Shown here: positions 15,852-33,694 of the stretch, in pieces
How positions within the stretch are numbered: the stretch's first letter is position 1
Layout: each line of letters starts with the position of its first letter
Origin: an uncultured SAR116 cluster alpha proteobacterium
Lineage (GTDB): Bacteria; Pseudomonadota; Alphaproteobacteria; Puniceispirillales; Marisalimonadaceae
Length of the DNA: 55,510 nucleotides
Assembly: GCA_902558885.1 (NCBI GenBank)
Contig: CACEFQ010000010.1
Coordinates: 1-55,510 of the forward strand
Reading direction: 5' to 3'
Made by a program: the position numbers and the translations under genes
Notes under the pieces: model-generated
What the model was told of the DNA's origin: nothing
Databases searched by the model: none
What the model saw: the letters and a program-made list of their open reading frames with translations, nothing else

Positions 15852-15864
15852 AGAATTTCAAGTG

Positions 15865-15876
15865 ATGGCGGAGGGA
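15865..15876. repeat. Left attachment site (copy of tRNA-Ser 3' end)
   Basis: The 12 bases ATGGCGGAGGGA are identical, in the same orientation, to 33683-33694, which cover the 3' end of tRNA-Ser(GCT) with its CCA. A short tRNA 3'-end repeat at the far border of an integrase-bearing segment is the standard mark of site-specific integration. The core continues into a GGAGG-GAA-CCTCC inverted repeat at 15870-15882. Confidence 0.75.
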
Positions 15877-15939
15877 ACCTCCTCGTTATTTCAATTTAAT
15901 CATCTGATTTATTTAGATATTATATACTTATAGTTTTTC

Positions 15940-15963
15940 AGTCTACAATTTAGTCTACAATTT
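15940..15963. promoter_or_regulatory. Tandem 12-bp integrase arm-site candidates, copy 1
   Basis: Two perfect copies of AGTCTACAATTT stand head-to-tail, 74 bp from the core repeat start at 15866. The same pair recurs at 27025-27048 and, diverged, at 33551-33574 before the integrase. Tandem short direct repeats near att cores are typical arm-type binding sites of tyrosine recombinases. Confidence 0.6.
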
Positions 15964-16003
15964 AAATATGTGTGATATCATATAACATTTTATGAGTTAA
16001 GGT

Positions 16004-16810
16004 ATGTCAGACCTACAAAAGGCGGTAGACGCAATAATTGAGAATGATTTTAAAAGGGCAATTAAATTATTGTTACCATTGTCAAAAAATGGAAATGCAA
16101 GTGCTCAATTTTATATAGGGTCTCTTTATTTTAATGGATTAGGTGTTATTGCAAATGAAAAAGAAGCAGATAAACTGCATTTAAGTTCAATAAAAATATT
16201 GAAAGAACAAGCAGAAAACAGCAATAAGGAAGCTATCTCTATATTAGGTAGAATACTTGCTGATGGAGTACAAATAAAAAATACAAATTTTCTAGAAGAG
16301 CTAAAATGGTTAAAATTAGCTTCTTCATATGGATGTCGTGAAGCTTCATTTATATTAGGCAACATCTATAATACTGGACATAAAATAAATAACACAAATG
16401 AAAGTGATTTTTTTCCAATCATAAATAAAAAGGAAGCTTTTAAATGGTTCAAAATTTCTGCTGAACAAGGTATGGCTTTTGGAATGATTAATGTCGCAAG
16501 TTTTTTTAGACTTGGTACGGGCGTAGATCAAGATTTAAAAGAAGCGTTTAAGTGGTATAATATTGCCGTCTTGAGCTACAAAAAAATGGTTAATTATAGA
16601 TTTGCTGAAATTTGGGAATATGAGGTAATACCAGGTATTAAAGATCATATAAGAGAAATAAAAAGAACACTACAATCTACTGATATTTTTGAAATAGTAA
16701 GAATTGCTAATGAATATGTTCGTCAGAAAACAGGTGAAGGTGTCTTAAACTATTCTAACAAAGATGATTTAGACAAGTTTCTTGAGTTTTTAGATAATAT
16801 TGGTGAATAA
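16004..16810 (+). CDS. Sel1-like repeat protein
   Basis: This 268-residue cytosolic protein is built of Sel1-like (TPR-related) helix pairs. Recognisable units are ASAQFYIGSLYFNGLGV, EAISILGRILADGV, EASFILGNIYNTGH and FGMINVASFFRLGTGVDQDLKEAFKWYNIAV. Such repeats bind other proteins and often accompany signalling or effector modules. The C-terminal 70 residues are helical and unassigned. It is the first gene inside the left element. Confidence 0.85.
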   Translation: MSDLQKAVDAIIENDFKRAIKLLLPLSKNGNASAQFYIGSLYFNGLGVIANEKEADKLHLSSIKILKEQAENSNKEAISILGRILADGVQIKNTNFLEELKWLKLASSYGCREASFILGNIYNTGHKINNTNESDFFPIINKKEAFKWFKISAEQGMAFGMINVASFFRLGTGVDQDLKEAFKWYNIAVLSYKKMVNYRFAEIWEYEVIPGIKDHIREIKRTLQSTDIFEIVRIANEYVRQKTGEGVLNYSNKDDLDKFLEFLDNIGE

Positions 16811-16927
16811 CAATAAGTAATAAGAATAATTTTTACATAAATGTTATAACTATTTATAAGAAATATTTGTTGATGAATTTTAGAAAAGTTTCAAAGCAAG
16901 AGAACTACAAATATAATTAAAAAAATA

Positions 16928-17281
16928 TTAGAAATACCAAAACCCCCACAAAAGTCCAAATATATAAAACAAAATTACAGGACCTATTAAAGCAATAATT
17001 AATTTAATTCTTATAGGTAAAAAACCTACTATAAAAGCTCCTATAAAAATTTCAATTATGGTTAATACTGTATAAGTTATATTATAATTTATTAGAGTTG
17101 TTAAAGGCGCTAACACTCCTGATAAAACTGTAAATGACAATGTCATGCTCCCCCAAGAGCTGTATATCCATAATGGATAAGATGATGTGTTATGAGGAGC
17201 ACGTCTTTGAATATAGGATGCGTTGCCAGCTATTAATCCAATTACCAAATGGACTATAACGAAGAAAGGTTCAATATTCAT
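16928..17281 (-). CDS. Small integral membrane protein (last gene of TerY-P operon)
   Basis: This 117-residue protein has about four hydrophobic helices separated by a short polar loop (IQRRAPHNTSSYP). No conserved catalytic motif is recognised. It starts 9 bp after the end of the 255-residue membrane protein, so the two are surely co-transcribed and may form a complex. Family unknown. Confidence 0.65.
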   Translation of the reverse strand: MNIEPFFVIVHLVIGLIAGNASYIQRRAPHNTSSYPLWIYSSWGSMTLSFTVLSGVLAPLTTLINYNITYTVLTIIEIFIGAFIVGFLPIRIKLIIALIGPVILFYIFGLLWGFWYF

Positions 17282-17290
17282 ATTTTTCTA

Positions 17291-18058
17291 TCATAAGTAT
17301 TCATTAATCTTATCTGGAACATGAAAAAAAACGAATAATCTACCCACCATTTCAGCAATTAGAAGCATGGAAACTAATGACAAAGTATTCAATGCAAACA
17401 TTATTAATAGAAAACTTAAAACTGAGTCACTTCCAAATGTAACTAGTAAGGAGTTAGCTATACCAGCAGGAATTGAAGTTAAAATTGTAAAACCAATCAT
17501 CATAAAAAAAAGTTTCATATGATAACCACTAGTAAGTTCCCATGACCTCTTTAATCTTGTTTTATCATTATTTACTGCAATAGCAGGAAATATAAGAATA
17601 AATCTAAAGGCCAGTGACAAACTAAATATAATAGCAAGAATTGTTAAAGTTATTGCAAAGCCACTAGAAAAAATACCTTCTTTTGACATAAATGCAAAAA
17701 TCATTGTAAAAACTAATATACTTACTCCAATAAATAATCCATATAACAAAGAGTAGCCAATAGTTACAAAACTCCTTTTATCAAATGAGTATTTGAAATC
17801 TTGTTTTGTAATTACCTTTTGATACCAACAAATTTGGACAGCTATAATACCAAGAAAGATTAAAATTGAGGCAATAGTAGTAATCCACTCTATATTTCCT
17901 AATCCAACACTTTGAGATGAAATTAAAAAATAATCTTTTAAAAAATACATTAATAAAAAAGGCCAAAAATATAAGAAAACACCTTTAAAGACATTTGGAA
18001 TTTGAGAAAAAGATGCTCCTATAATTGCCATGGCTGGGAGATTAGCTTTATCAGTCAT
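17291..18058 (-). CDS. Polytopic membrane protein, YciC/glycerophosphodiesterase-membrane-domain-like
   Basis: This 255-residue protein has six or so membrane helices. The cytosolic segment RFILIFPAIAVNNDKTRLKRSWELTSG resembles the P...LKRSWELT motif of YciC/UPF0259 and related membrane domains. No enzymatic domain is present. It lies 35 bp after the membrane-anchored kinase gene, with an AAGGAG ribosome site, and 9 bp before the next membrane gene. This suggests that the TerY-P module acts on, or from, the inner membrane. The family link is by motif only. Confidence 0.65.
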   Translation of the reverse strand: MTDKANLPAMAIIGASFSQIPNVFKGVFLYFWPFLLMYFLKDYFLISSQSVGLGNIEWITTIASILIFLGIIAVQICWYQKVITKQDFKYSFDKRSFVTIGYSLLYGLFIGVSILVFTMIFAFMSKEGIFSSGFAITLTILAIIFSLSLAFRFILIFPAIAVNNDKTRLKRSWELTSGYHMKLFFMMIGFTILTSIPAGIANSLLVTFGSDSVLSFLLIMFALNTLSLVSMLLIAEMVGRLFVFFHVPDKINEYL

Positions 18059-18093
18059 TTTTTATTCTCCTTATAGTTGTTATTTAAATAAAA

Positions 18094-19956
18094 TTAATAC
18101 CCACAAGTGTTAGTAGGACTAAGATAATTATATGCTGCAGAAAAGCCTCTCAAACTCACATGCAATTTATAGTCATCATTTTCTACTGCTAAGTAATTAC
18201 CTTTAATCAACTGCTCAACAAAACCTGAATAGAATGACAGGTTTATAACAGTTATTACATTTTCAACTTTCCCACCTTCCCAATATTTTTCATCAGTAGT
18301 TGCATTGGATAATTCTTTAAAATTATCAACTTTAAGATTTACAGCTTTACCAAGATAAAGGGGAGATTGATCAGTAGAAATTATCAATTCCGTTCCTTCA
18401 TTCGTACGAAAATACATTACAATATAGTTTTTACCGTCAATGACTTTATTAATTTGTATAGTACAATTAGCAGATTTCCACCAACTGCCTGATATACGTA
18501 TTGTATCACTATCATTATTTAGATTTTCTGTTCCACAGCTAAGTCCTCGTTGTTTAGCCAATGATACATAATCTCTAAAATCAGGCTCTGTATCCCATTT
18601 ACCATGATAAGTTGCCTTTATACATAATTGAGCATCACTACATTTTATTGGATCATCATCACAATCAGATTTATAATCATTATTTATAGTTATTAAATTT
18701 TCTTTACCTTTATCTCCATCAAAATTGTTGTAAATGAACAAACCAAAAATAAGGAATAAGGTAATACCCCCTAAAAGCTTTAGTGAGTCATTACTATTTG
18801 AATTTTTTGATTGTGAATACTTGTTGTTTTTATAGGGTAAATAATTATTTTGGTTAGGTCCCCATGGTCCCGATGAAATAGGGCTCGAAGAAGATGATGC
18901 AGATTTGGTTATATTATTATCTTTAGAGGAATTACGTTTTTTTATTTTCTTTTCAAATTTTTCAAACTCACAAGTTGGGCAACCTTTTTTAAATCCTCTG
19001 TGACCTATTTTATTGCATTTACTTAGAGCAGAAGGTTTCTTAAGATCATCTAATATGGATACCCACTCACTAGCCTCGGGACGTTCTTTTTTTTCAAATA
19101 TTCTAGAAAACATATCTAATAATTTAGTAGGGAATAGATGATGAACACTTGCTGGACTTGGTTTCTGTATTTGGTTTTGAACCTTTCCATAAGCATATGC
19201 CGATTTTTTTATTCTTTCTTGGATTGGTAATGTCTCATTTTTATTTAATATCCCAGAGTAAGGGTGTATTCCATTATTCAAAAGCTGGAAAATTATAACA
19301 GATAAAGCAAATATATCTTGTTCTCTTCCTAATTGAGACGGAGGCTTGCCAATAGATTCAGGCGCAATATAATCTGGGGTAATCATATCACCTTCAAAAG
19401 GAGAATTTTTTAACTTAAATCCATCACAATCAAGAAGACATACACCTGGAACTATTTTATAGGTTCTTATGTTTGCAGGTTTTGTGTCTATAACATAATA
19501 TCCAGATTGATGGAGGGTATTGTAAACATCGGCTAGATTTCGAGCCACGCCAATACGCCAAGTTATATCTTCTGTTATTTTTTCAGATTTTCTGTTTTTT
19601 ATAGAAAAAATTCTATTCAGTTGAACTGTGTCTTTAAAGCTTATCTTTGGCATTAAAAAGCCAACGGGTTTATTTTTTTCATAAACAATATTTTTTGGCC
19701 ATGCTAATTGGTGAAATTCTCCTTTAATTGGTAAATTTTTTAAAGAAACCAGTTCAGTACTTGGAAAACCATTTATAAATTGTTTTAATTTAGCTTCAGA
19801 TTTAGTTGCGTACTTTTTATCTTTATATAATTTAAATACAAAATCATCCGCGCCCTGAACATTATAAACTGTCGCTGTACCACCAGATTTTGATAAAATA
19901 TCTGTTATGATAATATCAAATTTTTTGTTATCATTCTGATAGATGTAGTAGCTCAT
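18094..19956 (-). CDS. Membrane-anchored Ser/Thr-type kinase of a TerY-P module, with outside domain
   Basis: The start is taken as the ATG at 19956, one base after the stop of the upstream kinase. It matches that paralogue's N-terminus, and the longer TTG frame is unsupported. The kinase domain (about 1-300) has a glycine loop SGGTATV, Lys42 in FVFKLY, an HRD-type loop changed to DTKPAN (about 157-162), DCDG in place of DFG, and APE. A C-x4-H-x6-C-x2-C zinc knuckle follows, then a disordered linker, one membrane helix (about 390-410) and an outside region. That region starts with a four-cysteine module (about 431-474) and continues as a beta-rich domain of about 140 residues. TerY-P kinases of this type partner with PP2C and vWA proteins. 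The membrane anchor plus sensor-like ectodomain is unusual. Confidence 0.85.
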   Translation of the reverse strand: MSYYIYQNDNKKFDIIITDILSKSGGTATVYNVQGADDFVFKLYKDKKYATKSEAKLKQFINGFPSTELVSLKNLPIKGEFHQLAWPKNIVYEKNKPVGFLMPKISFKDTVQLNRIFSIKNRKSEKITEDITWRIGVARNLADVYNTLHQSGYYVIDTKPANIRTYKIVPGVCLLDCDGFKLKNSPFEGDMITPDYIAPESIGKPPSQLGREQDIFALSVIIFQLLNNGIHPYSGILNKNETLPIQERIKKSAYAYGKVQNQIQKPSPASVHHLFPTKLLDMFSRIFEKKERPEASEWVSILDDLKKPSALSKCNKIGHRGFKKGCPTCEFEKFEKKIKKRNSSKDNNITKSASSSSSPISSGPWGPNQNNYLPYKNNKYSQSKNSNSNDSLKLLGGITLFLIFGLFIYNNFDGDKGKENLITINNDYKSDCDDDPIKCSDAQLCIKATYHGKWDTEPDFRDYVSLAKQRGLSCGTENLNNDSDTIRISGSWWKSANCTIQINKVIDGKNYIVMYFRTNEGTELIISTDQSPLYLGKAVNLKVDNFKELSNATTDEKYWEGGKVENVITVINLSFYSGFVEQLIKGNYLAVENDDYKLHVSLRGFSAAYNYLSPTNTCGY

Positions 19957-19957
19957 A

Positions 19958-21106
19958 TTAATTATTTCCAAATAAAAATTTTGAAATGCTATCCTTTAAA
20001 TCTTCAAAGTTACTTTTGGGTTTAGTTGGTAACGGTGAATTGTTAAAATAATTTGAAACATTTCTTTTAGTAACAGGTTTTTTTACTTGAACATTATTAT
20101 TTAATATTTTTTTCTCAAAAGCACAGGTGGTACAACCTTTTTTAAATCCTCTGTGACCTATTTTATTGCATTTACTTAGAGCAGAAGGTTTCTTGAGATT
20201 ATCTAATATGGATACCCACTCACTAGCCTCGGGACGTTCTTTTTTTTCAAATATTCTAGAAAACATTTTCAACATTTCATCAGGGAACATGTGATGGACA
20301 GTAGCTGGACTTGGTTTCTGTATTCGGTTTTGAACCTTTCCATAAGCATATGCCGATTTTTTTATTCTTTCTTGGATTGGTAGTGTCTCATTTTTATTTA
20401 ATATCCCAGAGTAAGGGTGTATTCCATTATTAAATATTTGAAATATTAAAACAGATAAGGCAAATATATCTTGTTCTCTTCCTAATTGAGACGGAGGCTT
20501 GCCAATAGATTCAGGCGCAATATAATCTGGGGTAATCATATCACCTTCAAAAGGAGAATTTTTTAATCTGAAACCATCGCAATCAAGAAGACATACACCT
20601 GGAACTATTTTATAGGTTCTTATGTTTGCAGGCTTTGTATCAACAACATAATATCCAGATTGATGGAGGGTATTGTAAACATCGGCTAGATTTCGAGCTA
20701 CCGTAATGCGCCAAGTTATATCTTCTGTTATTTTTTCAGATTTTCTGTTTTTTATAGAAAAAATTCTGTTCAGTTGTACTGTGTTTTTAAAGCTTATCTT
20801 TGGCATTAAAAAGCCAACGGGTTTATTTTTTTCATAAACAATATTTTTTGGCCATGCTAATTGGTGAAATTTTCCCTTAATTGGTAAATTTTTTAAAGAA
20901 ACCAGTTCAGTGCTAGGAAAACCATTTATAAATTGTTTCAATTTAGCTTCAGATTTAGTTGCGTATTTTTTATCTTTATATAATTTAAATACAAAATCAT
21001 CTGTGCCCTGAACATTATAAACTATCGCTGTACCTCCAGACTCAGATAAAATATCCTTTACTTTCAATTCAAATTTTTTTTTATTTTTTTGAATATAATA
21101 GCTCAC
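19958..21106 (-). CDS. Cytosolic Ser/Thr-type kinase paralogue of the TerY-P module
   Basis: This 382-residue protein is nearly identical over its first 320 residues to the downstream kinase, including the glycine loop, the catalytic Lys, DTKPAN, DCDG and APE motifs and the C-x4-H-x6-C-x2-C zinc knuckle. It lacks the membrane helix and outside domain and ends in a short disordered tail (VKKPVTKRNVSNYF). Translation starts at a GTG that overlaps the PP2C stop by four bases (GTGA), so expression is coupled. A substrate or partner difference between the soluble and anchored copies is likely. Confidence 0.85.
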   Translation of the reverse strand: MSYYIQKNKKKFELKVKDILSESGGTAIVYNVQGTDDFVFKLYKDKKYATKSEAKLKQFINGFPSTELVSLKNLPIKGKFHQLAWPKNIVYEKNKPVGFLMPKISFKNTVQLNRIFSIKNRKSEKITEDITWRITVARNLADVYNTLHQSGYYVVDTKPANIRTYKIVPGVCLLDCDGFRLKNSPFEGDMITPDYIAPESIGKPPSQLGREQDIFALSVLIFQIFNNGIHPYSGILNKNETLPIQERIKKSAYAYGKVQNRIQKPSPATVHHMFPDEMLKMFSRIFEKKERPEASEWVSILDNLKKPSALSKCNKIGHRGFKKGCTTCAFEKKILNNNVQVKKPVTKRNVSNYFNNSPLPTKPKSNFEDLKDSISKFLFGNN

Positions 21107-22074
21107 CTAAGTATCATCCCAATAGTCGCATCGTCAGTATCAACCTTGCTAATTTTTTCAAAAGTAAAAACATTTTCTAAAATGTTTGATAAGTCTTTAT
21201 CTTTATGCTTTTCTCTAATTTTTATAAAACTCTCAAATAAAGGTAATGCAATCGTTTTACGATCTGAGCCTATCCAAAATTTATCAGCACCATCTGACAT
21301 TATTAAACAAGCATCATAAGTTTCTTTTTTATAGTAAAACCTGATATTCTTTTTCCAATCTTCCATAGTAAAAAAATAAGTTTCGTTATCGTATTCACCA
21401 TTTCTTGGAAGAGATATAATTTGATTTTGAGTATCTGAATTTTCTAATTTACGTTTCCAGCCAACAATATATCCGTCTCCAATATGAGCTGTAAAAGTGC
21501 TTAGAGGGGAATTTATAATCAATAAAAAAGTAGATGCATAATCAGATAGTTTAGTTTCAACTGAGTCTACCAAAACACTATCTTGAATTGATTTTGACTT
21601 AGATAAATCTTGTTTCAATTCAACATTATCATCTGATTCATTAACTACTGTTATAGTTTTTTGATATGGCTTGGTTTTAGAAAAATAGCGAACAACTTTT
21701 GTTCCTACATTACTAAATAAATCTGCCAGATTTATTTTTTTTTTATTAATTAAGTCAAATTCTTCTTTCTTATCTTCTAATAGATTTGTTCGAATTTCTT
21801 CAATCGATTCTAAAATGATTCTTTGAAATTCTTCGTTATGTTCATATGGATCAGTGAAGATTTCTTTATTTTTAAATTTTTTTAAATTATCTAAAACTTT
21901 ATTAACAATTCTTCTAGAGCCTTCTTCAGACCTTGCCGCACTTCCTGCACCGTCAGCTGCAACAAGAATAACTGTTTCTCCTATGCTATGACCTTGGATA
22001 TAGTCTTGATTTGGTAGATCATCTTCTATATGAGACTTTCCTCTAACAGAGACAGTCCCGTATTCAAATTGCAT
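21103..22074 (-). CDS. PP2C-type Ser/Thr phosphatase of the TerY-P module
   Basis: This 323-residue PP2C-fold protein has the metal-binding segments DYIQGH...VAADGAGSAARSEEGS (first Asp cluster), AHIGDGYIVGWKR, and MSDGADKFW; a final DDATIGMIL matches the last metal Asp. It would remove phosphate placed by the neighbouring kinases. An insertion of about 90 residues, rich in Lys and Ser (ETKLSDY region), separates the first and second halves. The ATG at 22074 overlaps the vWA stop as TGATG. A GTG one codon upstream is an alternative start. The triad vWA-PP2C-kinase is the TerY-P architecture. Confidence 0.85.
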   Translation of the reverse strand: MQFEYGTVSVRGKSHIEDDLPNQDYIQGHSIGETVILVAADGAGSAARSEEGSRRIVNKVLDNLKKFKNKEIFTDPYEHNEEFQRIILESIEEIRTNLLEDKKEEFDLINKKKINLADLFSNVGTKVVRYFSKTKPYQKTITVVNESDDNVELKQDLSKSKSIQDSVLVDSVETKLSDYASTFLLIINSPLSTFTAHIGDGYIVGWKRKLENSDTQNQIISLPRNGEYDNETYFFTMEDWKKNIRFYYKKETYDACLIMSDGADKFWIGSDRKTIALPLFESFIKIREKHKDKDLSNILENVFTFEKISKVDTDDATIGMILR

Positions 22075-22727
22075 CACACAGATGCCCAGTCAATTGGAGG
22101 AAGACTTGTTTTATCGCTGTCTGATACTTTTTGTGAGCCGATACGTACACTTTTTGAAATCCACACAAATAGTTTAGTAAAATCAATACCGTTTAACTTT
22201 TGTGGCTCTCTAATACTAAACTTCGATAATATTTCTTGGTCAGCATCTCCAACTGCAATTGTGAATACTGTAAATTTTCCATCTTTTTCTAATTGTTTAA
22301 AATTCGAAGCTGAGTTCTGCCAATCATCGTTTGGTGCTCCATCTGACATTATGAAAACCCAAGGTTGTAAATAAGAAACTCCATTATTTCTGAATTCTTC
22401 TTTTCTATTTTCAATTTCTTCTACAGCCAAACTAACTGCACTTCCCATTGGTGTCATTCCATCAGCATAAAGTTCTGGGGCTTCAAAGTTTTCTGCGTCG
22501 GTCCAGTTACTAATAATTTCTGCACTTCCACCACATTTAATTACCATTATTTGCACTTTCTGAGATGCATCATCATCAGATTTTACATCTTGAGCAAAGT
22601 AATCTAACCCACTTTGGAGTTCCTTTATAGGGTTACCAGACATTGAAGCAGATGTGTCCAGTATCAAAACGCAAGGTAACCTTTGTTCTTGATTATTTAT
22701 CAACTCTAAATCAAATTCTTGTGCCAC
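22074..22727 (-). CDS. terY: TerY-like von Willebrand factor A protein
   Basis: This 217-residue vWA domain has an intact metal-ion-dependent adhesion site: DTSASMSG (D-x-S-x-S), the distant Thr in DGMTPMGSAV, and the Asp in IMSDGAPNDDW. I chose the GTG at 22727 because GGAG at 22735-22738 lies seven bases upstream. The longer TTG frame (22754) has no such signal. TerY proteins are the vWA partners of PP2C and a kinase in TerY-P stress or phage-defence modules. This is the first gene of a six-gene operon with stop/start overlaps. Symbol given by resemblance. Confidence 0.83.
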   Translation of the reverse strand: MAQEFDLELINNQEQRLPCVLILDTSASMSGNPIKELQSGLDYFAQDVKSDDDASQKVQIMVIKCGGSAEIISNWTDAENFEAPELYADGMTPMGSAVSLAVEEIENRKEEFRNNGVSYLQPWVFIMSDGAPNDDWQNSASNFKQLEKDGKFTVFTIAVGDADQEILSKFSIREPQKLNGIDFTKLFVWISKSVRIGSQKVSDSDKTSLPPIDWASV

Positions 22728-22806
22728 AAAAAAACTCCTATCAAAATTTAACAAATTTATTAAAATATACTAATTTAATATAATTACATAAGTAAAGAAT
22801 AATATT

Positions 22807-26061: not shown

Positions 26062-26253
26062 ATGGCAAATAGTGGAATTTTTTTGATTGATTTAATTTAT
26101 GATTTCTGTGTGAAATTATTAATAGATACAGCAAGTTTTTTGGGTATTACATATGAAGAGATAAATGTTTGGTTGTTTGTTGTAATTTGGCCACTCTTAA
26201 GCTTAGTTTTGTTTGCGGAGGTAATAAGACTAAGAATAAAAAAGGATCATTAA
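26062..26253 (+). CDS. Small single- or two-pass membrane protein
   Basis: This is a 63-residue protein with a moderately hydrophobic first half and a strong membrane helix (VWLFVVIWPLLSLVLFAEVI), ending in a basic tail RLRIKKDH. An excellent AAGGAG site lies nine bases before the ATG, which supports a real gene despite its size. It precedes the 225-residue gene by 19 bp and is probably co-transcribed. Family unknown. Confidence 0.6.
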   Translation: MANSGIFLIDLIYDFCVKLLIDTASFLGITYEEINVWLFVVIWPLLSLVLFAEVIRLRIKKDH

Positions 26254-26272
26254 CGAAAGAATAAAACTTAGA

Positions 26273-26950
26273 ATGTTTTCATTTTTATATAATAAACTTT
26301 ACAAAAAAATAATCCTTATAATTCTATCTTTGTTCATATGCTTGCCGTACATAGATGAAATTCCATATCCTCTTATATTAGATATTCCAAAATCTGATGA
26401 GATAAATATTACTCAAGAATGGAAAAACCTTAAATACCCATGTTTTAAAGTTGAAAGTTTATCTGGAAACTGGTTATCAGATTATTCAGGACATTTTAGT
26501 ATATCTGATTATGAAAACTTCAGGCTTAATCCAGGATTATATTTTGGAGATGAAATAAAAGATTATAATGAAAAAGAAGTTTTAATTGGATATGGCTCAG
26601 AAATGTATTCTTTAATTCAACCAATAGATAAATGTGTAAAAGCAGAAATTAAAAATAATGATAATTATGATAATGTTTACTATATTTTAGGTGGGGTTAA
26701 TCCTAAGATATGTGATTTACATGCTCCTTATATTCAATCGAAATGTAAGAGTTCTTATATCGTACAGTCATGTAGTTTTTCTAAAACAGGCTCAATGACT
26801 GGAATTAATCAATGTACTATTGGTTTATTTGGATTATTTAATTTAAAAGAGTTAGGTTTAAGTATTGTTCCACTAAAGTACTTTGAGTTTTTCGAAGATG
26901 AAAATGATGCTTTTAATTATATTTGGTTTCAAGAGAAAAGATCAACCTAA
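26273..26950 (+). CDS. Membrane-anchored hypothetical protein at the element border
   Basis: This 225-residue protein has an N-terminal signal anchor (KIILIILSLFICLPYI) and an outside domain with several Cys (about seven, in pairs such as ICDL..SKCKS and SCSF..QCTI) suggesting disulfides. No family is recognised. Its TAA stop abuts the second att-like core directly, so the left element ends exactly with this gene. Confidence 0.65.
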   Translation: MFSFLYNKLYKKIILIILSLFICLPYIDEIPYPLILDIPKSDEINITQEWKNLKYPCFKVESLSGNWLSDYSGHFSISDYENFRLNPGLYFGDEIKDYNEKEVLIGYGSEMYSLIQPIDKCVKAEIKNNDNYDNVYYILGGVNPKICDLHAPYIQSKCKSSYIVQSCSFSKTGSMTGINQCTIGLFGLFNLKELGLSIVPLKYFEFFEDENDAFNYIWFQEKRST

Positions 26951-27050
26951 TGACGGAGATAACCTCCTCGTTATTCCATTTTAATTATCTGATTTAACAA
27001 GATTTTATAGATTAATGATTATACAGTCTACAATTTAGTCTACAATTTAA
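26948..27050. repeat. 103-bp island-end repeat, copy 2 (internal att-like site)
   Basis: This aligns gap-free to 15863-15965. The core reads TGACGGAGATAACCTCCTCG against TGGCGGAGGGAACCTCCTCG in copy 1, so the tRNA-derived bases have drifted while the right part of the core is identical. The ATCTGATTTA block and the two AGTCTACAATTT units are conserved. It marks a junction between two elements that use the same integration site. Confidence 0.75.
27025..27048. promoter_or_regulatory. Tandem 12-bp integrase arm-site candidates, copy 2
   Basis: Two perfect head-to-tail AGTCTACAATTT units begin 74 bp after the core start at 26951, exactly the spacing found in copy 1. Keeping both sequence and spacing while the segment between them drifts suggests functional constraint. 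Confidence 0.6.
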
Positions 27051-27157
27051 ACTTAATATTGAAATCATAATTTAAAAGTATTATTTAAATCAAAGGCATT
27101 TAATTACCAACTTGTACGCCTTGGCATCCAGCCTAAAGTACTAAAGCGGAGGCACAA

Positions 27158-27568
27158 ATGACAAATATCATCCTATTCTCAAACAAAGACGCAATTTTTC
27201 CACCCATTCCTAGACACAGAGTGTTTTACCTAGGTTATAGATATATTGGAGGCATGTGTTGCCAAGATGTACAAAATATATATCTAAAAAGAAAAGGTAT
27301 GCTCCATGGTAATCGTTACTGGGCTATAATTACATATGACAAATATAATAACTATTGTTCTCTAGAACTTGAAGAATGTCATGAAGATGATGTGATAGAG
27401 ATGATAGACATGTTTGATTTAGACTCTCTCCCATCAATTAAAACTCTTAGGTCAATGGGCTGGAGAGGCAAGATTAAAAATAAAGCAAATTTATTCTATA
27501 GCCTATCGAATGACCCTGATTATTTAAAAAGAAACCAAAACATAATTGATATTGATAGAGCTAAATAA
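27158..27568 (+). CDS. Hypothetical protein of the right element
   Basis: This 136-residue soluble protein is rich in Tyr, Cys and Asp. No signal or membrane segment is seen. Segments such as GYRYIGGMCCQDVQNIY and CSLELEECHEDDVIEMIDMFDL are distinctive but not recognised. A strong GGAGG site lies eight bases before the ATG. The stop is directly followed by the start of the next gene (no gap), so the two are coupled. It is the first gene of the right element. Confidence 0.6.
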   Translation: MTNIILFSNKDAIFPPIPRHRVFYLGYRYIGGMCCQDVQNIYLKRKGMLHGNRYWAIITYDKYNNYCSLELEECHEDDVIEMIDMFDLDSLPSIKTLRSMGWRGKIKNKANLFYSLSNDPDYLKRNQNIIDIDRAK

Positions 27569-27817
27569 ATGAAAAAAGATGAACATTTTAAATACTGCAA
27601 AAAAGTAGCAGATGTTCTTGGTTATGATAGATTACATAATCTTGATAAACTTCAAAGACAATCCTTAAATAATCAACTAAACGACTTGATTGAAGAACGT
27701 GACTATGTTGTAGAAACTGTTACTGATGATGAAATAATTGGTCGTTATAAACTAGTAACAGAGCATATATATCCTAATGAATTTGTTATAATGCGAGAAA
27801 AGATTAATCAAGATTAG
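27569..27817 (+). CDS. Small hypothetical protein of the right element
   Basis: This is an 82-residue acidic, mainly helical protein (LDKLQRQSLNNQLNDLIEERDYVVETV). It starts immediately after the previous stop and is surely translated with it. The composition recalls small adaptor or anti-repressor proteins of phage-derived islands, but no family can be named. Confidence 0.55.
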   Translation: MKKDEHFKYCKKVADVLGYDRLHNLDKLQRQSLNNQLNDLIEERDYVVETVTDDEIIGRYKLVTEHIYPNEFVIMREKINQD

Positions 27818-27964
27818 CTAGTTCTGGGGGGACTTAGGGGATGGTAAAATATTTATATTAGAGTGCAATATAGAAATTTAAAAAATTTGATATAATATAA
27901 TGATAAATATGAATGTTAGTCCAAGCATGAATATGAATTTTTTATAAACCTCAATCATTTTTAA

Positions 27965-30900
27965 TTATTTCTTTTTACCAAGAAAATCATGCCATCCTTT
28001 CCATCCTTTTGATGAATAAATCCTATCTGGAGTTGATGGAATATCTATTGGTAATTTTTTTTCCTTACCATGTTTTGCCCATTCTTTTGATGATTTTAAT
28101 TTTAACGACCTCGCGTATATTTTAGCATCTTTAAAAGACTTGAATGTTTGAGGGGTTTTTCCTAAAAATGAAAACCATCCACGCCATTCTCCTGTTCTCA
28201 AGTAATAATAATTTGGAGATTTTGGAAAATTTTTTGGAATTTTTGATAATTTACATAACTCGGACCATTCTTTAAGTGAATTTACATTATTTTTTTTTGC
28301 CCATGCAGAAGCTTCTGTATAAGTTGCTGTAATCTTAACTTTGGAAATACCAAGCCAGTCATCCATACCACTCCACCCTTTATTTAAATATTTTATTCTT
28401 GGTTGTTTAGGAAGTTTTGGATGTTTATTTTTAGAATATGCATATTCCAACCATTCTTTATTACTTTTCAGTCCAAGTGCACGAACTATTTTTCTTGCCT
28501 GAAAATAAGTTAAATCATAATCAATTTTTTCTGTTCCTGTGAAATCATTCCATCCTTTCCAACCTTTATTTCTGTAATAAAAATCTGGTTTTAATGGTAG
28601 ATTTTCTGGTATTTTCCCCTCATTTACAAATCTTGTCCATTCAGTACTTGATTTTATATTATTTTCTTTCACAAATTTTTTGGCTTTTTGAAAATCATCA
28701 ATTTTTCTTAAATTAATTGGAATGATTGACGATTGAAGAAAAGTAGGCCAATCTACCCAACCATTATTTTTATAAACTTTATTTGGTTCTTTTGGCATTC
28801 TTAAAGGAAAATTTTTTGTTTTTTTCAATTTTTGAAAATCTACTTGTCTTTTTAAGCCAATTTTTTTGCAATACTCACTTGCTTCATCATAATTAAATTT
28901 TTTAATTATTTTCTCTTTTCTGAGCCAATGAGGCCAATTTATCCAACCCTTATTTTTATAAAATGAGTCTGGATTTTTTGGTATATTACGAGGTATTTTG
29001 CCTTCTTGAATCAATTTTCGCCACATACCCTCTGATTTTATTTGCTTTTTAAAAATAATTTTATGAGCTTCATTAAAATCCAAGAAATTTTTTTCTGTAC
29101 CTAAAAAATTAGGCCAGCCAAGCCAATCATTTTTGTATGTTAATCCTGGACCAACAGGCAATCCTTTTGGAAGTATCTTATATTTTATACCGTCAACCCA
29201 TTGTTTCTGTGTTGTTATTTTATATTTTTTTGCAATTTCTTTAGCCTGAACAAAATTAAATAAAACTGTTCTATCATCTGTTCCAATAAAATCTGGCCAA
29301 TTTTTCCAACCTTTATTTCTATAAGCTTGATCAGGGTTGTAAGGTAAATCATTTGGTAGTTTGTTTTTGTTTCCTAAGTCTTTCCATTCATCACCAGAGT
29401 TTAAATTTAAAGAATGTGCAAATTCTTTAGCCTTATTAAAATCTCTCCATTCTCTTAAAAAGTTAGCTACGTATCCGGTACCTAAAAAATTTCCCCATGA
29501 TGTCCAACCTTTTTCTCTATAATATCTGTCTGCATTTAGAGGTATGTTTAATAGTTCTGGGTAATTTCTGCTTCTTTTCCTATAATCGTCTAAATTTTTA
29601 AATTGATATTTTTTGACAATGTTTTCTGCTTCTAAATATGGTAACCAGTTTGCTCTCGCAACATTTGACCAAATTTGGGTATATATTGTGTTAAATAATT
29701 CTGTAGAAGAAATACTTAAATGTTTATAAAAATTTGAATCAATTTGAACAATATTTGAGGGTACAATAGATTTTTTCTTAATACCTTCTCTTAATTCATC
29801 GACAATCCTCTCATCTTGAGTAGAAAGAGAGGTTATAATTCTTAAAATTTGTTTAAAATTAGTTTTGTCTGCAAAATCACTTAAATTTTCTTCTTCAGGA
29901 ACAATGAGTGGCAACAGAACATATCCAATTTTTTTACCAGTTTTTTTTGACTGTCGCATCGCACGTCCAGCTGCTTGAACAATGTCAACAACACTTTTTT
30001 TTGGGTCAGCAAAAACTACACAATCTATAGATGGTATATCCACACCTTCTGTTAAACATCTAGCATTTGAGATAATGGATTTCTTTTCATTAGCATAACT
30101 TCTTAATACATCTGCTCTTTGGCCTGCAGAGTTTTTACTAGATACTTGATAGTTAACAATTCCTGTCTTTTTTAAGAATTCTTTTTGTTGAGATGAAAAA
30201 AACAGTGACCTTTTAATACTATTATGAAATGTAATAGCATGAGTGATGTTGTATTTTTCAAAAACTTTTAAAAGAGCAATACCAACAGATATATTATGAG
30301 CATCTGTCTCAATTTTATCTTTGCCAACTGAAACACTTAATGCTGGATTTTCATTAATTAGAATTTTTGCTTCCTTCTCAGTTACAGCGAGTGTAACTAT
30401 TTTATAGTCACAAATTATCTTTTGCTTTATGGCATCTCTGAAAGATAATTGATGGAAAACTTCACCATAACTTTTAGGGTTGTCCATTGAGATAAATTCA
30501 TCTTGAAGTTTGCCGTTGGACCTTATAACGCGTTCTGTAGCAGTCATAAAAATTCTTTTTTTTACAACAATGTTTTTATCAAATAAAATTTTGGAGAATG
30601 AATTGTTAAATCCTACGGTTTTATGTGCTTCATCACATATAAGTAAGTCAAAAATTTTTTTAGTCTTTTTTGACGCCTCACATAACTTTTGGCTACTTTG
30701 ATATGTAACAAAAACTACTTTAGGTAACTTTGATTTTTTTTGTAAAAATTTTTGTATTTCGTTAATGTTTGTTGTTGTTGGTATACCTGTATCATAAATA
30801 CTAGCAACCGTGCTATCTGCGTCAGTTGTATCACCAACAGTATCATCTGAACAAATTGCAATCCAATCTGGTTTTATGTCGTTTGCTAAATACTCAGCTG

Positions 30901-31654
30901 TCCAATCAGCAAGTCCTTGTCTTATAAGTGCGAGACTTGGAACTGAAACTATTATTTCTTTTGCTTTTAGAGTTTGAGCAATCCAAAAAGCCGTCAAACT
31001 TTTACCAGTTCCACATGGCATTATAAGTTTTCCACGTGAATTACCATTTTCAGCAAAATATTTTAATGCATCGTTGATTGCTACTTTTTGATGTTTCCGT
31101 GGTATTCTTTTTTTTGGTGGCAAAAGTTTTTTTGATTTACAATAGTCTCTTAATCGTTTCCATTCTGCTTCTGAAATTTCTAACCACTTATCCAATCCTA
31201 TTTCCGTAACATTAGGCATTAATTTCGATTTTTTTATAGGTTTTTTTGAGGTGTGAACTACAATTGCAAGAGATATGTTTTTGCATGTATTAAATGAAAG
31301 AGCTTCGAATGTTGCTAACTCCTTTCTTGTCGGGGCTTTATCTTGGTCAGCTTTAAACTTACTTTGAACAGACCAAAAATTTCCATCTATAGTCTCACAA
31401 ATTAAATCAATACCTTCATCGCCAGATGGTAGGTTAAGTTTTGTTTGAATATTTGTTGGCAGCTCACCTTTATTATTACACCACCAAATATTTTTAAGTT
31501 TAGATGAATAGGTACTAGTAATAAGAAGATAAATTTGTGTAAGTCTTTCAAACAGACGACCTTTTAAAATATTATCATCGAGTTGACTTGTTTTGGATAC
31601 AAATTCATCCCAAGTCTTACAATTAGAAATAAATGTATCTATCGAAAATGACAT
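27965..31654 (-). CDS. Nuclease-helicase fusion (Type ISP-like motor) with nine C-terminal GW repeats
   Basis: This is a 1229-residue protein. Residues 1-170 look like the Mrr-type nuclease of Type ISP restriction enzymes: E36, D83 in GIDLI and QSK at 97-99, that is a D...QxK site. Residues about 185-600 are an SF2 helicase/translocase with CGTGKS (214-219), DEAH (341-344), MTATER (370-375), TEGVD (535-539) and QAAGRAMR (560-567). Residues about 668-1229 hold nine repeats of about 60 residues with the pattern F-x-(E/K)A...(K/S)xx(E/Q)W....(K/L)P..(L/I)P..P...Y...GW..W..FLG. Type ISP enzymes carry a methyltransferase and target-recognition domain here. None is present or nearby. The protein could cut incoming DNA, with the repeats as DNA- or protein-binding units. 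The function is inferred. Confidence 0.85.
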   Translation of the reverse strand: MSFSIDTFISNCKTWDEFVSKTSQLDDNILKGRLFERLTQIYLLITSTYSSKLKNIWWCNNKGELPTNIQTKLNLPSGDEGIDLICETIDGNFWSVQSKFKADQDKAPTRKELATFEALSFNTCKNISLAIVVHTSKKPIKKSKLMPNVTEIGLDKWLEISEAEWKRLRDYCKSKKLLPPKKRIPRKHQKVAINDALKYFAENGNSRGKLIMPCGTGKSLTAFWIAQTLKAKEIIVSVPSLALIRQGLADWTAEYLANDIKPDWIAICSDDTVGDTTDADSTVASIYDTGIPTTTNINEIQKFLQKKSKLPKVVFVTYQSSQKLCEASKKTKKIFDLLICDEAHKTVGFNNSFSKILFDKNIVVKKRIFMTATERVIRSNGKLQDEFISMDNPKSYGEVFHQLSFRDAIKQKIICDYKIVTLAVTEKEAKILINENPALSVSVGKDKIETDAHNISVGIALLKVFEKYNITHAITFHNSIKRSLFFSSQQKEFLKKTGIVNYQVSSKNSAGQRADVLRSYANEKKSIISNARCLTEGVDIPSIDCVVFADPKKSVVDIVQAAGRAMRQSKKTGKKIGYVLLPLIVPEEENLSDFADKTNFKQILRIITSLSTQDERIVDELREGIKKKSIVPSNIVQIDSNFYKHLSISSTELFNTIYTQIWSNVARANWLPYLEAENIVKKYQFKNLDDYRKRSRNYPELLNIPLNADRYYREKGWTSWGNFLGTGYVANFLREWRDFNKAKEFAHSLNLNSGDEWKDLGNKNKLPNDLPYNPDQAYRNKGWKNWPDFIGTDDRTVLFNFVQAKEIAKKYKITTQKQWVDGIKYKILPKGLPVGPGLTYKNDWLGWPNFLGTEKNFLDFNEAHKIIFKKQIKSEGMWRKLIQEGKIPRNIPKNPDSFYKNKGWINWPHWLRKEKIIKKFNYDEASEYCKKIGLKRQVDFQKLKKTKNFPLRMPKEPNKVYKNNGWVDWPTFLQSSIIPINLRKIDDFQKAKKFVKENNIKSSTEWTRFVNEGKIPENLPLKPDFYYRNKGWKGWNDFTGTEKIDYDLTYFQARKIVRALGLKSNKEWLEYAYSKNKHPKLPKQPRIKYLNKGWSGMDDWLGISKVKITATYTEASAWAKKNNVNSLKEWSELCKLSKIPKNFPKSPNYYYLRTGEWRGWFSFLGKTPQTFKSFKDAKIYARSLKLKSSKEWAKHGKEKKLPIDIPSTPDRIYSSKGWKGWHDFLGKKK
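27968..29655 (-). repeat. Nine coding repeats of a GW..W..FLGT module
   Basis: The C-terminal third of the nuclease-helicase gene encodes nine diverged units of about 58-62 codons. Each has an EA/KA helix, an EW or similar position, a P-x-x-(L/I/F)P turn and a Y...GW..W..(F/W)LG ending. Unit endings include GWTSWGNFLGT, GWKNWPDFIGT, GWKGWNDFTGT and GWKGWHDFLGK. Divergence between units shows an old expansion, unlike the repeats at 251-520. Confidence 0.85.
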
Positions 31655-31679
31655 ATCTAAATTCTAATACCAAAATCTT

Positions 31680-32039
31680 TTAAAGTGTATACCTAAATAG
31701 ATTATCCGATGATTTTTGGGTTATATCATCCTTACCTTTTATTAGGCTTAAAAACCTAAGTACTAAATTAGCTTTTTTAAATAAATCTAATTCTTCATTA
31801 TTTAGAGCTTCTCTAATTACATTCTGAGAACTAATTAAGAGGTTTTTATGCGTCTCATCAATTTCTCTTAAAACAACCTCAGTTGCATCGTCTAATGCCT
31901 CTTTAAATTCATCAATTTGCCTCCAACGTGATAATGTTTCTTCTCTTATGGCAAGTTCTTTGGCAATAATTGAAGCCTTAACGCCAGACGCAAGTAAATG
32001 AACTGCAATTAGTTGTTTTTCATTGAGTTTTGTTGACAT
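31680..32039 (-). CDS. Small helix-turn-helix protein (phBC6A51/terminase-small-subunit-like)
   Basis: This 119-residue protein has an N-terminal HTH (LNEKQLIAVHLLASGVKASIIAKELAIREETLSRWRQIDEFKEAL) as in small phage DNA-binding and terminase-small-like proteins, and a helical C-terminal half. It overlaps the AlpA-like gene by 20 bp and precedes the nuclease-helicase gene by 25 bp, so the three form one leftward operon. A role as transcriptional regulator or DNA-targeting partner of the helicase is inferred. Confidence 0.7.
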   Translation of the reverse strand: MSTKLNEKQLIAVHLLASGVKASIIAKELAIREETLSRWRQIDEFKEALDDATEVVLREIDETHKNLLISSQNVIREALNNEELDLFKKANLVLRFLSLIKGKDDITQKSSDNLFRYTL

Positions 32040-32256
32040 TTTCTCTCTCAGGTTTATGACCTAAAAAACCTCTTATTTTTTTTTGTTCAATAATAAACTG
32101 ATTAATTTCTTCTAAGTCCCACATGACTTTATTAGGTCCAAGAAGAAATGGTTTTGGAAAATTATCAATATTTTTTGACCACCTAGATACTGTAGATGGG
32201 CTAATATTTAATATTCTTGAAACTTCTTTTTTAGGGATAAGTCTATTTTTGAACAT
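32020..32256 (-). CDS. AlpA-like excisionase/regulator
   Basis: This 78-residue winged-helix protein of the AlpA/MerR-excisionase type has LIPKKEVSRILNISPSTVSRWSK as the recognition helix-turn-helix and WDLEEINQFI as the wing-helix. In P4-type islands AlpA both activates the integrase and assists excision. It lies directly downstream of int on the same strand. The final 20 bp overlap the next gene. A palindrome sits 19 bp upstream of its start. Confidence 0.82.
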   Translation of the reverse strand: MFKNRLIPKKEVSRILNISPSTVSRWSKNIDNFPKPFLLGPNKVMWDLEEINQFIIEQKKIRGFLGHKPERENVNKTQ

Positions 32257-32274
32257 GATATAAACCTTAAAAAT

Positions 32275-32288
32275 TCCTCAAGTGAGGA
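32275..32288. promoter_or_regulatory. Palindrome upstream of the AlpA-like gene (operator or int terminator)
   Basis: TCCTCA-AG-TGAGGA is a perfect inverted repeat between int and the AlpA-like gene. Read leftward it is TCCTC-ACTT-GAGGA followed by ATTTTT, a short terminator-like hairpin for the int transcript. Its position next to the alpA start also fits an autoregulatory operator. Both readings are possible. Confidence 0.4.
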
Positions 32289-32368
32289 GTTAATGTTTTA
32301 CACTCATGATCTCCAATTCTTCTATTATTAATCCTAGCACATTTTAACGATTAGAAAAACATGATTTG

Positions 32369-33541
32369 TCAATTGACGACATACTTTTCCCAATCATTCA
32401 TAATTATTGTTCTGGCGTCAATTAAGTCTGTCCTTAAATATGCTTTTTCAACTTTGTTCGGTAATTCATGTGCCAAACAAAACTCTATTGCATTATGTTG
32501 ATACTGACCTATATCTTCTGCCCAATCTCTAAACGAAGACCTAAAACCATGAACAGTAATTTTCAGATGAGGAAACTGTTTTTTTAAGAAAATTAGCATT
32601 GCTCCATTAGATATATGTCTACCAGTTGCAGGATTGGTAAATACATATTCGTGGTTATGTTTTTTTCTCATCAACTCAATTATTGATATGGCTTCATCTG
32701 ATAAAGGCACTTTATGTTTTTTTCTAACTTTCATTTTATCAGCTGGAATAGTCCAAACTTTCTTTTGTAAATCAAATTCATCAAACTGAGACTCAATTAC
32801 TTCTTTGGTCCTAGTGGCTGTTAAAATTAATAACCTTAATGCATAGGCTGACAACATTTCAAACTTACATAGCTCTTCATAAAATTTTGCAACTTCAGTA
32901 AACTTAAGTGAAGGGTGATGTTTAACTTTTTTTATTAAGTAAGGGTCTGGAAGTATAAATGAGAGATGTTCTTTCCAGGATGCTGGATTATCATGAGTAT
33001 ACCATTCTCTAATTTTGGCAAATGCAAATATGAGGAATAGCCTTTGTTGAAGCTTTCTGGCAGTTTCAGTCTTATCTCTCCAAATAGGACGAAGAACACT
33101 TATAATATCATCTCTATTAATATCATTTAATGGTTTGCTATCAAGTATTGGTGATACATAGGTATTAATTGTATTACGCCATTGTTGTTCACTTTTAGGG
33201 TTCGTCCACTCAGGCTTTTTCTTAGTTTCAATATATAGATTAGCTATATCGGAGAATTTCTTATTTTGTTGTTGCCTTAGAACCTCAACTCGGTTTTTTT
33301 CATCTATTGGGTCAATTTTCTTATTCAGTAATTGTTTATTTTTTAATGAATGTTGTCTTGCATCTAAAAGCGAAACGTCTGGGTAGCTTCCAAGACCCAT
33401 TTCTCTAGATTTTTTGTTTATTGTATAGCGAAAACTCCATTTGCCTCTTCCAGGGCTATAAATTGAAATATAAAGCCCATTTCCATCATGATATTTACCT
33501 TTTGGTAAAACAAATAATTGCTTTGCATTTAATCTTTTCAT
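32369..33541 (-). CDS. int: P4-type tyrosine integrase
   Basis: This 390-residue site-specific recombinase has an N-terminal DUF4102-type arm-binding domain (LPKGKYHDGNGLYISIYSPGRGKWSFRY), a SAM-like core-binding domain and the catalytic domain. The catalytic set is complete: Arg244 (TATRTKEV), His331-x-x-Arg334 (VHGFRSSF), His358 (CLAHEL) and nucleophile Tyr368 (EKAYLRT). I chose the ATG at 33541 because GGAG lies five bases upstream; the longer TTG frame (33559) overlaps the arm-site repeats. It would integrate and excise the island at the tRNA-Ser 3' end 142 bp away. Confidence 0.95.
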   Translation of the reverse strand: MKRLNAKQLFVLPKGKYHDGNGLYISIYSPGRGKWSFRYTINKKSREMGLGSYPDVSLLDARQHSLKNKQLLNKKIDPIDEKNRVEVLRQQQNKKFSDIANLYIETKKKPEWTNPKSEQQWRNTINTYVSPILDSKPLNDINRDDIISVLRPIWRDKTETARKLQQRLFLIFAFAKIREWYTHDNPASWKEHLSFILPDPYLIKKVKHHPSLKFTEVAKFYEELCKFEMLSAYALRLLILTATRTKEVIESQFDEFDLQKKVWTIPADKMKVRKKHKVPLSDEAISIIELMRKKHNHEYVFTNPATGRHISNGAMLIFLKKQFPHLKITVHGFRSSFRDWAEDIGQYQHNAIEFCLAHELPNKVEKAYLRTDLIDARTIIMNDWEKYVVN

Positions 33542-33550
33542 GTCATCTCC

Positions 33551-33574
33551 AGTCCACAACTCGGTCTACAAGTT
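33551..33574. promoter_or_regulatory. Diverged tandem arm sites in the int leader
   Basis: Two head-to-tail 12-bp units, AGTCCACAACTC and GGTCTACAAGTT, match AGTCTACAATTT at 9 and 10 of 12 positions and are in the same orientation as the copies at 15940 and 27025. They overlap the integrase 5' leader, so Int binding here could also repress its own expression. Confidence 0.5.
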
Positions 33575-33682
33575 GGTTTGATTAAAGATGATTTATAATG
33601 AAATAGTATGAAGACCTTTCGTCAACAACTTCCCGTGTATCCTTAGGTTTATGACATAGCATGACATAAGGAAGTTATCTTA

Positions 33683-33694
33683 ATGGCGGAGGGA
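33683..33694. repeat. Right attachment site within tRNA-Ser
   Basis: ATGGCGGAGGGA covers the encoded CCA, the discriminator and the acceptor strand at the 3' end of tRNA-Ser(GCT). It is an exact direct repeat of 15865-15876. Identity stops where the T-arm begins, so the crossover lies in or next to these 12 bp. Confidence 0.75.

Follow-up and report, generated by a model that had tools for sequence, protein, structure and literature searches.

Introduction

Accessory genes vary strongly among streamlined ocean bacteria, and the engines of this variation are poorly known. The described systems that seem closest to the locus treated here are additive genomic islands, the ssrA islands of Dehalococcoides, and cis-mobilizable elements (CIMEs). 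In Candidatus Methylopumilus, the flexible genomic island (fGI) fGI-2 is outlined as holding islands of 330 bp to 42 kb with recurring 20-bp tRNA-Lys ends (PMC10872708); tRNA-end repeats or tRNA-targeted cassettes also appear in the accounts given of the Methylophilaceae (PMC10872708), Alteromonas fGI1 (PMC4119200), and Candidatus Actinomarinales (PMC7771536). In Dehalococcoides, tandem ssrA islands are reported to be bounded by repeats of the RNA-gene end, 15 of them without an integration module (PMC3146451). Integrons and clusters of attC sites lacking integron integrases (CALINs), as outlined in PMC11389934, have one site per cassette in an array of one orientation, with few integrases and with reassortment. 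Here, we analyze a 55,510-nucleotide stretch (the window; contig CACEFQ010000010.1) of an uncultured SAR116 alphaproteobacterium, the assembly of which (G000) comprises 1.65 Mb and is 76% complete. The region at 15.9–33.7 kb is probably a short gene-cassette array anchored at tRNA-Ser, in which a P4-like tyrosine integrase would play the capturing role.

Islands bounded by tRNA ends are already known; new here are the arm-bearing one-sided block, the census of units, the reassortment test, and a mirror-image second family. No prior description of a SAR116 cassette array was found in the literature searched, subscription papers being outside its scope. With an attachment site, a likely integrase, and a cassette pool, it becomes testable which integrase moves which cassette and whether a one-sided site is enough.

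Anatomy of an attL-like block

The window contains just two exact copies of the 3′ end of tRNA-Ser(GCT), ATGGCGGAGGGA, at 15865 and 33683, as a first-pass annotation had noticed from the letters alone. The third, drifted copy of that annotation is present as ATGACGGAGATA, with 3/12 bases different; it starts at 26950 (26950–26961) rather than at 26951. The two left copies belong to a gapless pair of 103-bp blocks (15863–15965 and 26948–27050), identical at 85/103 positions as previously aligned, and outside this pair steps of 20 bp match at 2–8/20 positions, as expected of unrelated sequence. Only these two copies were found in the own assembly, the second at E = 2.1e-24, a value that rejects a chance repeat.

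Both copies have the same layout: the core, a palindromic GGAGG-NNN-CCTCC (one base pair of which is drifted in the middle block), a conserved AT-rich stretch with AATYATCTGATTT, and a terminal AGTCTACAATTTAGTCTACAATTTAA starting at 15940 and 27025. The AATCATCTGATTT of the left block is presumably IHF-like, by resemblance, and we take the order of core, bend-type motif, and tandem arms to resemble that of phage lambda attL. The only other AGTCTACA-like pair 12 bp apart on the plus strand of the window (at most one mismatch each) starts at 33551 and 33563 and adjoins the integrase, the tandem arm lying 132 bp from the attR core. Because the arms at the block ends match those next to the integrase, the block copies are attachment-site halves and not chance repeats; judged from this layout, the block is attL-like, with a core plus tandem 12-bp arms. 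The single-strand fold shows nothing unusual for both window blocks on both strands (z = 0.20, −0.60, 0.26, and 0.52), and a folded attC-like site was rejected on these scores of about 0.

The host flank bordering the array on the tRNA-distal side is matched in 30/40 genus genomes (E ≤ 0.001), 15 of them, including the own genome, at E ≤ 1e-160. In G015, homology to this flank ends at 15847.

Block arrays directed at tRNA-Ser

Many of the compared genomes are single-cell assemblies, incomplete and broken at arrays, and the stretches were selected for holding a block or the tRNA locus; units without this block (the A block) fall outside the counts. The block is found in 31/40 genus genomes at E ≤ 0.01 and in 29/40 at E ≤ 1e-10, the weakest being G020 with a match of 24 bp, and the matched blocks are 73–94% identical to the left block of the window. 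A profile search together with further loci gave 128 block copies in 60 stretches, the places fetched being a subset of the genus-wide matches. Arrays elsewhere hold up to five blocks per stretch. The orientation is uniform in 38/39 stretches with at least two blocks (L127 is mixed), and tRNA-Ser, GCT or GGA, lies downstream in the array direction in 14/15 stretches holding both a block and tRNA-Ser. The single exception is L149 of G013, where tRNA-Ser(TGA) is followed by an integrase fragment facing a block junction in inverted orientation (7122–8297), perhaps through an inversion between tRNA-Ser cores.

The LysR gene beside the tRNA of the window is closely matched (E ≤ 1e-140) in a further 23 genus genomes; 20 of these loci were fetched (G008, G026, and G034, with LysR at a contig end, were left out), and tRNA-Ser(GCT) is present in 20/20. 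The first-pass annotation had proposed a comparison of alleles at this locus. Alleles of both units in other contexts were recovered; no empty tRNA site was recognized among the 20 loci, several of which stop short of the left flank.

Beyond the genus, a strict arm pair matched 43 stretches in a collection of 84,980 species, AAA536-G10 among them, with titles naming SAR116, Alphaproteobacteria, or (one) Pseudomonadota; 17 of these loci were new and 26 repeated known stretches. A looser arm pattern occurs in 29/136 genomes of the order and 4/20 genera, three in one family and one in the sister family, with zero control matches, while close integrases (E ≤ 1e-120) occur in 15/136 genomes, representing four genera of one family. 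The block pattern and the close integrases occur in one family, bar one arm-pair match in the sister family. In the viral contigs searched, the block arm pattern is absent, and four pattern matches to relatives of the integrase were obtained, none confirmed.

Scarce integrases and one-sided sites

A unit was defined as a stretch bounded either by a pair of blocks or by one block and tRNA-Ser (n = 82), and integrases were sought with a profile built from 28 integrases, that of the window included. No integrase match was found in 76/82 units, among them the left unit of the window, which is the longest of the 76; their lengths range from 275 bp to 11.1 kb, with a median of about 2.1 kb. In the six delimited units with an integrase, the gene adjoins the tRNA in five, and an integrase-side arm (at most two mismatches) is present in five, at −127 in four and at −130 in one; the sixth, without this arm, has an integrase of 44% identity. 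Arm sites flank the core on both sides in the integrase unit of the window and in 4/5 of the others. By comparison, the window-type integrase-side arm (at most three mismatches) is found in 3/76 integrase-less units, all tRNA-adjacent at −127, and the remaining 73 show at least five mismatches, like 59 interior controls; the attachment site is therefore mostly one-sided. By construction, the far-side site of an integrase-less unit belongs to the next unit or to the tRNA. This count was made on window-type arms alone and then repeated with the arm type of a mirror-image block, B, included, whereupon the right ends of the 76 units divided into 9 with B, 3 with the window-type arm, and 64 with no known arm. 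Taken together, these comparisons show that an attL-like block of ~100 bp bounds the units tRNA-distally, that the arrays aim at tRNA-Ser with few units carrying an integrase, and that integrase-side arms occur with the integrase or at tRNA-adjacent ends.

Beside tRNA-Ser(GCT) in L051 and L170, the integrase gene is cut after about 20–35 codons, its 5′ fragment being kept beside the arm. In L170, the cut coincides with a sequence resembling the core (by eye), which may be a secondary site within the gene. L163 retains the integrase-side arm with no integrase piece.

Reassortment of cassette ends

Among 120 junctions, 108 pairs have a common left flank, 23 of them also a common right flank. Recurrent left-flank clusters meet at least two right clusters in 16/19 cases, and right clusters meet at least two left clusters in 20/22; controls offset by −500, +500, +900, and −900 bp gave 2/18, 2/19, 4/16, and 0/15 for the left figure and 4/19, 0/18, 0/14, and 2/16 for the right. 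BLAST match boundaries cluster around the core, at −20 to +20 (123 starts and 136 ends), and ends are frequent again at +80, the right edge of the block (116). Across 93 intact-core junctions, left-partner identity is at background beyond about +10 of the block, and right-partner identity is above background from about +40. Furthermore, a 3,593-bp stretch, 97.1% identical, is shared by G063 (GCT array) and G012 (GGA array), beginning at most 8 bp from the block start in both. These flanks show that the block is where cassette ends change partners, both from genome to genome and from one tRNA-Ser locus to another.

Both units of the window recur in part in other genomes. In G004:C29, the block (94% over 197 bp) and the integrase (93%) of the right unit have different surroundings and different middle cargo, and a further block lies beyond the attR of the integrase unit; in G014:C15, the integrase (92%) and its regulators (82%) occupy the same tRNA with other cargo. 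The block and Sel1 gene forming the first 0.9 kb of the left unit begin at the core in G004:C30 and G009:C5 (82%), the latter at tRNA-Ser(GGA). Since each recurs apart, the right and left units move separately, and the possibility, raised with the first-pass annotation, that the whole 15.9–33.7 kb always travels as one unit is contradicted by these separate occurrences. Its basic picture of two units stacked at one tRNA-Ser, the right with an integrase and the left without, is borne out, each recurring separately elsewhere, as is its single integrase (one match in the own assembly, the incompleteness of which could hide a second copy). The proposed accretion of two islands is sound as to stacking and too narrow as an account, the locus being an instance of a genus-wide cassette array.

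Features of the two units

The coordinates of the array and its genes are collected in Table 1.

Table 1. Features of the tRNA-Ser array in the window
Feature	Position	Strand	Evidence or remark
Conserved host flank, tRNA-distal border, with open reading frame (ORF) 15435–15851	15003–15862	+	
Left unit, 11.1 kb, without integrase	15863–26949		no integrase match inside
Left att block	15863–15965	+	profile match 15869–15960, E = 4.8e-23
Left block core ATGGCGGAGGGA	15865–15876	+	tRNA-derived
Left block palindrome GGAGG-GAA-CCTCC	15870–15882		
Left block conserved AATCATCTGATTT	15898–15910		
Left block tandem 12-bp arms	15940–15965		
Sel1-repeat protein, first gene of the passenger	16004–16810	+	PF08238
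Two protein-kinase genes, tandem duplication (18094–19971, 19958–21106)	18094–21106	−	PF00069
PP2C phosphatase	21103–22077	−	PF13672
VWA protein	22074–22754	−	PF00092
YHYH-domain protein	24772–25302	−	NF033223
Middle att block, left end of integrase unit (drifted core ATGACGGAGATA 26950–26961, arms 27025–27050)	26948–27050	+	
Right unit, 6.7 kb, integration module on tRNA side	26950–33694		
Two small ORFs (27158–27568, 27569–27817)	27158–27817	+	no Pfam match
1229-aa ResIII/SF2 helicase protein, restriction-like, C-terminal repeats by eye	27965–31654	−	PF04851, PF00271
Helix-turn-helix (HTH) protein, integration module	31680–32039	−	PF13022 below cut-off
AlpA-like regulator, integration module	32020–32256	−	PF05930 above cut-off
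P4/CP4-like tyrosine integrase, 390 aa from ATG 33541	32369–33541	−	PF13356, PF22022, PF00589
P arm: integrase-side tandem arm sites, just upstream of integrase	33551–33572	+	same orientation as block arms
TGACATA repeat between P arm and core	33652–33671	+	putative accessory site
attR core, 3′ end of tRNA-Ser(GCT)	33683–33694	+	ATGGCGGAGGGA match
tRNA-Ser(GCT), array anchor	33684–33775	−	only tRNA found in window

The integrase is P4-like in its arm-binding, core-binding, and catalytic domains, with an R-H-x-x-R-H-Y pattern at residues 244, 331, 334, 358, and 368 (assigned by eye). It matches the CP4-like PDB entry 3jtz, and it is 36.5% identical to the Caulobacter phage DMCA integrase. As its start, ATG 33541 appears better placed than TTG 33559, because an in-frame TAG interrupts the longer frame in 9/14 relatives, one of them also with a TAA; in G014 and G017, where the upstream DNA was read by eye, a TAG codon immediately follows the TTG. 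With the start at ATG 33541, the integrase-side arms therefore lie directly upstream of it. The pair of HTH and AlpA-like genes also adjoins the integrase in G014:C15.

The helicase protein of the right unit matches the PADLOC model REase_MTase_IIG at E = 3e-93, with the best stretch at residues 30–522. Its C-terminus carries several W-rich repeats like NLPxxPDxxYxxKGWxxWxDFLG (by eye), unmatched in Pfam. The DNA of the second small ORF recurs in G017, G062, and G004 (stretches L036, L117, and L120).

The kinases, PP2C, and VWA protein of the left unit form what we take to be a TerY-P-like set; the PF00069 scores of the two kinases are at and just below the cut-off, and the duplicated parts (18958–19931 and 20110–21084) are 92.8% identical over 977 bp. 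Two defence cargoes had been suggested for the region, a suggestion that is at best too narrow: on the right the helicase scores against restriction-enzyme models, and on the left the kinases and PP2C give weak PADLOC matches and the VWA protein none. A relative of the YHYH gene in G007 (L140 1609–2094, 80%) occupies an independent 1.35-kb cassette (unit 1506–2852). The gene pair at 26043–26939, where the left unit ends at the core, is inverted beside another integrase of about 40–41% identity in five genomes (G003, G022, G002, G004, and G005). Older blocks hidden inside the 11.1-kb passenger were sought at maximum sensitivity and rejected, none being above threshold.

Other integrase families and cassette cargo

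At the same tRNA, other integrases of about 33–44% identity occupy 10/20 fetched loci, and several divergent integrases at the tRNA-Ser locus have other arms of 12-bp period. Of 31 occurrences of the mirror-image block B, 30 share one orientation; 15/31 are at an A-block junction with a common core and 10/31 at a tRNA. At the two places where a B integrase was seen, the gene points in the array direction, away from the core. In L176 (2400–2800) it stands opposite a piece of an A-type integrase, and in G021:C8 (70271–70720) opposite an integrase of 43% identity, in both cases across one common core and with own arm types.

The cargo sample comprised 75 integrase-less units, that of the window left out, with 209 ORFs of at least 90 aa in 102 clusters; 2/75 units have no such ORF. 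With one representative scanned per cluster (n = 102), 130 Pfam families were matched, the commonest being DoxX with three members; enzymes, transporters, regulators, and unknowns are among the best 25 of the 130. Ten cassette proteins scanned singly include transporters, helicases, dehydrogenases, hydrolases, and others. In PADLOC, 60 families were matched, and the best 25 of the 60, each in one member, consist of 15 DpdF models and others including PsyrT, a type II restriction enzyme, and mads proteins. Because of these matches, defence-type genes are counted among the cassettes, alongside many other functions. In PHROGs, searched for marks of a phage satellite, the best 25 of 60 families matched by the 102 cassette proteins include a DNA helicase and a Holliday-junction helicase, one member each, and none for capsid or packaging.

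A proposed capture cycle and its alternatives

In the cycle that we propose, the P4-like integrase would recognize the arms and act, in cis or in trans, on the blocks of passengers. The passengers would circularize, each circle with one attL-like site, and would recombine, probably with AlpA, with the tRNA core or with the attR of the integrase unit, their preferred partners, by arm–core pairing. Such a pairing is the one used in phage excision. The insertion would then land next to the tRNA or next to the integrase, as in G004:C29, and the integrase unit would hop back to the tRNA, leaving the cassette behind, with the array growing from the tRNA end. In the window, the passenger with TerY, PP2C, and kinase genes stands behind an integrase unit carrying the restriction-like helicase. 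The mostly tRNA-adjacent position of the integrase (5/6) and the order in G004:C29 would both be explained by this cycle of capture at attR, excision, and return. A wider interpretation is tentative: a phage-type integrase may have given an analogue of the integron, adding one-sided cassettes at attR or the tRNA core, with the mirror-image B integrase adding to the same arrays with reversed polarity. On this view, cassettes would accumulate in stacks and pass from one tRNA-Ser locus to another, and B would share the core and rely on arms of its own.

Several observations weigh against such a capture array. Match starts peak elsewhere too, for example 56 at −220, and in one left-flank family (6 junctions) the crossover lies within the block, away from the core; because of this family, homologous exchange between blocks may account for some junctions. 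B blocks are present on 9/76 integrase-less right ends, and 12-bp tandem scores of at least 7 occur in 17/64 of the ends with no known arm versus 13% of 275 controls, a slight excess from which arm types beyond the known ones may exist there. A full close integrase (at least 65% identity) was found in 8/31 block-bearing genomes and a partial one in 2, the assemblies being incomplete. Block quality is no better in genomes with the integrase (40 blocks in 8 genomes versus 61 in 20; p = 0.49). Overlapping ends indicating a circular form were found in 0/15 distinct complete block-bearing contigs (21 sequences minus five repeats of other contigs and the incomplete, block-free L035), and no contig-end join of at least 19 bp was found within six genomes, a weak search as several stretches are incomplete.

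The passengers may instead once have been complete integrase-bearing elements that later lost the integrase, with later elements landing at the tRNA and the one-sided site being nothing specialized. Such ordinary accretion and decay, the CIME model, is outlined for integrative and mobilizable elements and CIMEs (PMC5704250) and was considered for Dehalococcoides (PMC3146451), and it fits the integrase pieces with an arm beside the tRNA in L051 and L170 and the arm alone in L163. However, deletions at random would be expected, in many cases, to spare pieces of the arm or to cut into the following block, whereas 64/76 integrase-less units stop at the following core and carry no known arm; with units as short as 275–750 bp and the same cassette ends in many contexts, this history appears rather unlikely. 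Improbable to a greater degree is a reshuffling of neighbours by RecA-dependent recombination between the dispersed homologous blocks of ~100 bp, for which no integrase would be needed. The 73–94% identity of the blocks, the junctions falling inside the block, and the 21/31 block-bearing genomes with no close integrase, full or partial, speak for it; however, left-partner identity is gone after about +10, far ahead of the arms, the blocks have a single orientation toward tRNA-Ser, and they bear the arm sites found beside the tRNA integrase.

The 85/103 identity of the two blocks within one genome would also suit a single 17.8-kb element with an internally duplicated left end, but pieces of each unit are found on their own in other genomes, starting at a core, and arrays reach five blocks; this candidate was rejected and retains hardly any credibility. 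Equally remote is a dispersed regulatory repeat, or one resembling a miniature inverted-repeat transposable element, with no relation to integration, which the first-pass annotation had weighed for the copy at 26948. The block is indeed short, AT-rich, and repeated, but it starts with the tRNA-Ser 3′ end, shares its arms with the integrase-side site, aims at tRNA-Ser in 14/15 stretches, marks recombination points, and has an unremarkable fold; the arms, the orientation, and the recombination points led to its rejection.

Comparison with known systems

The additive fGIs share with the SAR116 array the tRNA genes as targets, the presence or absence of cassettes, and repeated tRNA 3′ ends with variable cassettes; they belong to other lineages, and the descriptions, in the parts that bear on this point, give no arm-bearing block of 100 bp, no one-sidedness, and no census of integrases and cassettes. 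The Dehalococcoides ssrA islands differ, as far as their description extends, in the CcrB-like integrase DsiB, compared with a P4-like tyrosine integrase, arm sites, and tRNA-Ser here. In CIME/ICE accretion (ICE, integrative and conjugative element) of Streptococcus, integrase-less units likewise stand in tandem with an integrase unit at a tRNA gene, according to the account in PMC5704250. The left unit of the window was initially likened to CIME/ICE accretion, a comparison that is too narrow or not supported: the lack of integration genes is shared by 76/82 SAR116 units, but a CIME keeps attL and attR, and the integrase-less units mostly lack integrase-side arms. No conjugation family is present among the Pfam matches listed for the window or among the best 25 of the 130 cassette families.

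P4/CP4-like prophage integrases have the same domains, an adjoining AlpA, and a tRNA target, whereas close relatives of the SAR116 integrase turn up, within the order searched, only in a single family, amid many integrase-less units. The tycheposons of Prochlorococcus, said to have been described by Hackl et al. in 2023, are reportedly tRNA-anchored, with a tyrosine recombinase and a streamlined marine host. Traits of this kind (tRNA anchor, tyrosine recombinase, and streamlined marine host) are touched on in PMC10872708.

In organization, judged by comparison of the sequences, the array is integron-like and is not an integron. As in integrons and CALINs, there is one site per cassette, one orientation, few integrases, and reassortment. 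In contrast, the SAR116 integrase is P4-like, with Arm-DNA-bind_3 and Phage_int_M domains, and is not IntI; the NCBIfam XerA/integron-integrase model scores 30 bits on the window integrase against a cut-off of 220. IntI is not known to have an arm-binding domain. The SAR116 site also differs in having no unusual attC-like fold (z about 0). Should one-sided sites suffice for the integrase, a capture of genes like that of integrons would have arisen outside them.

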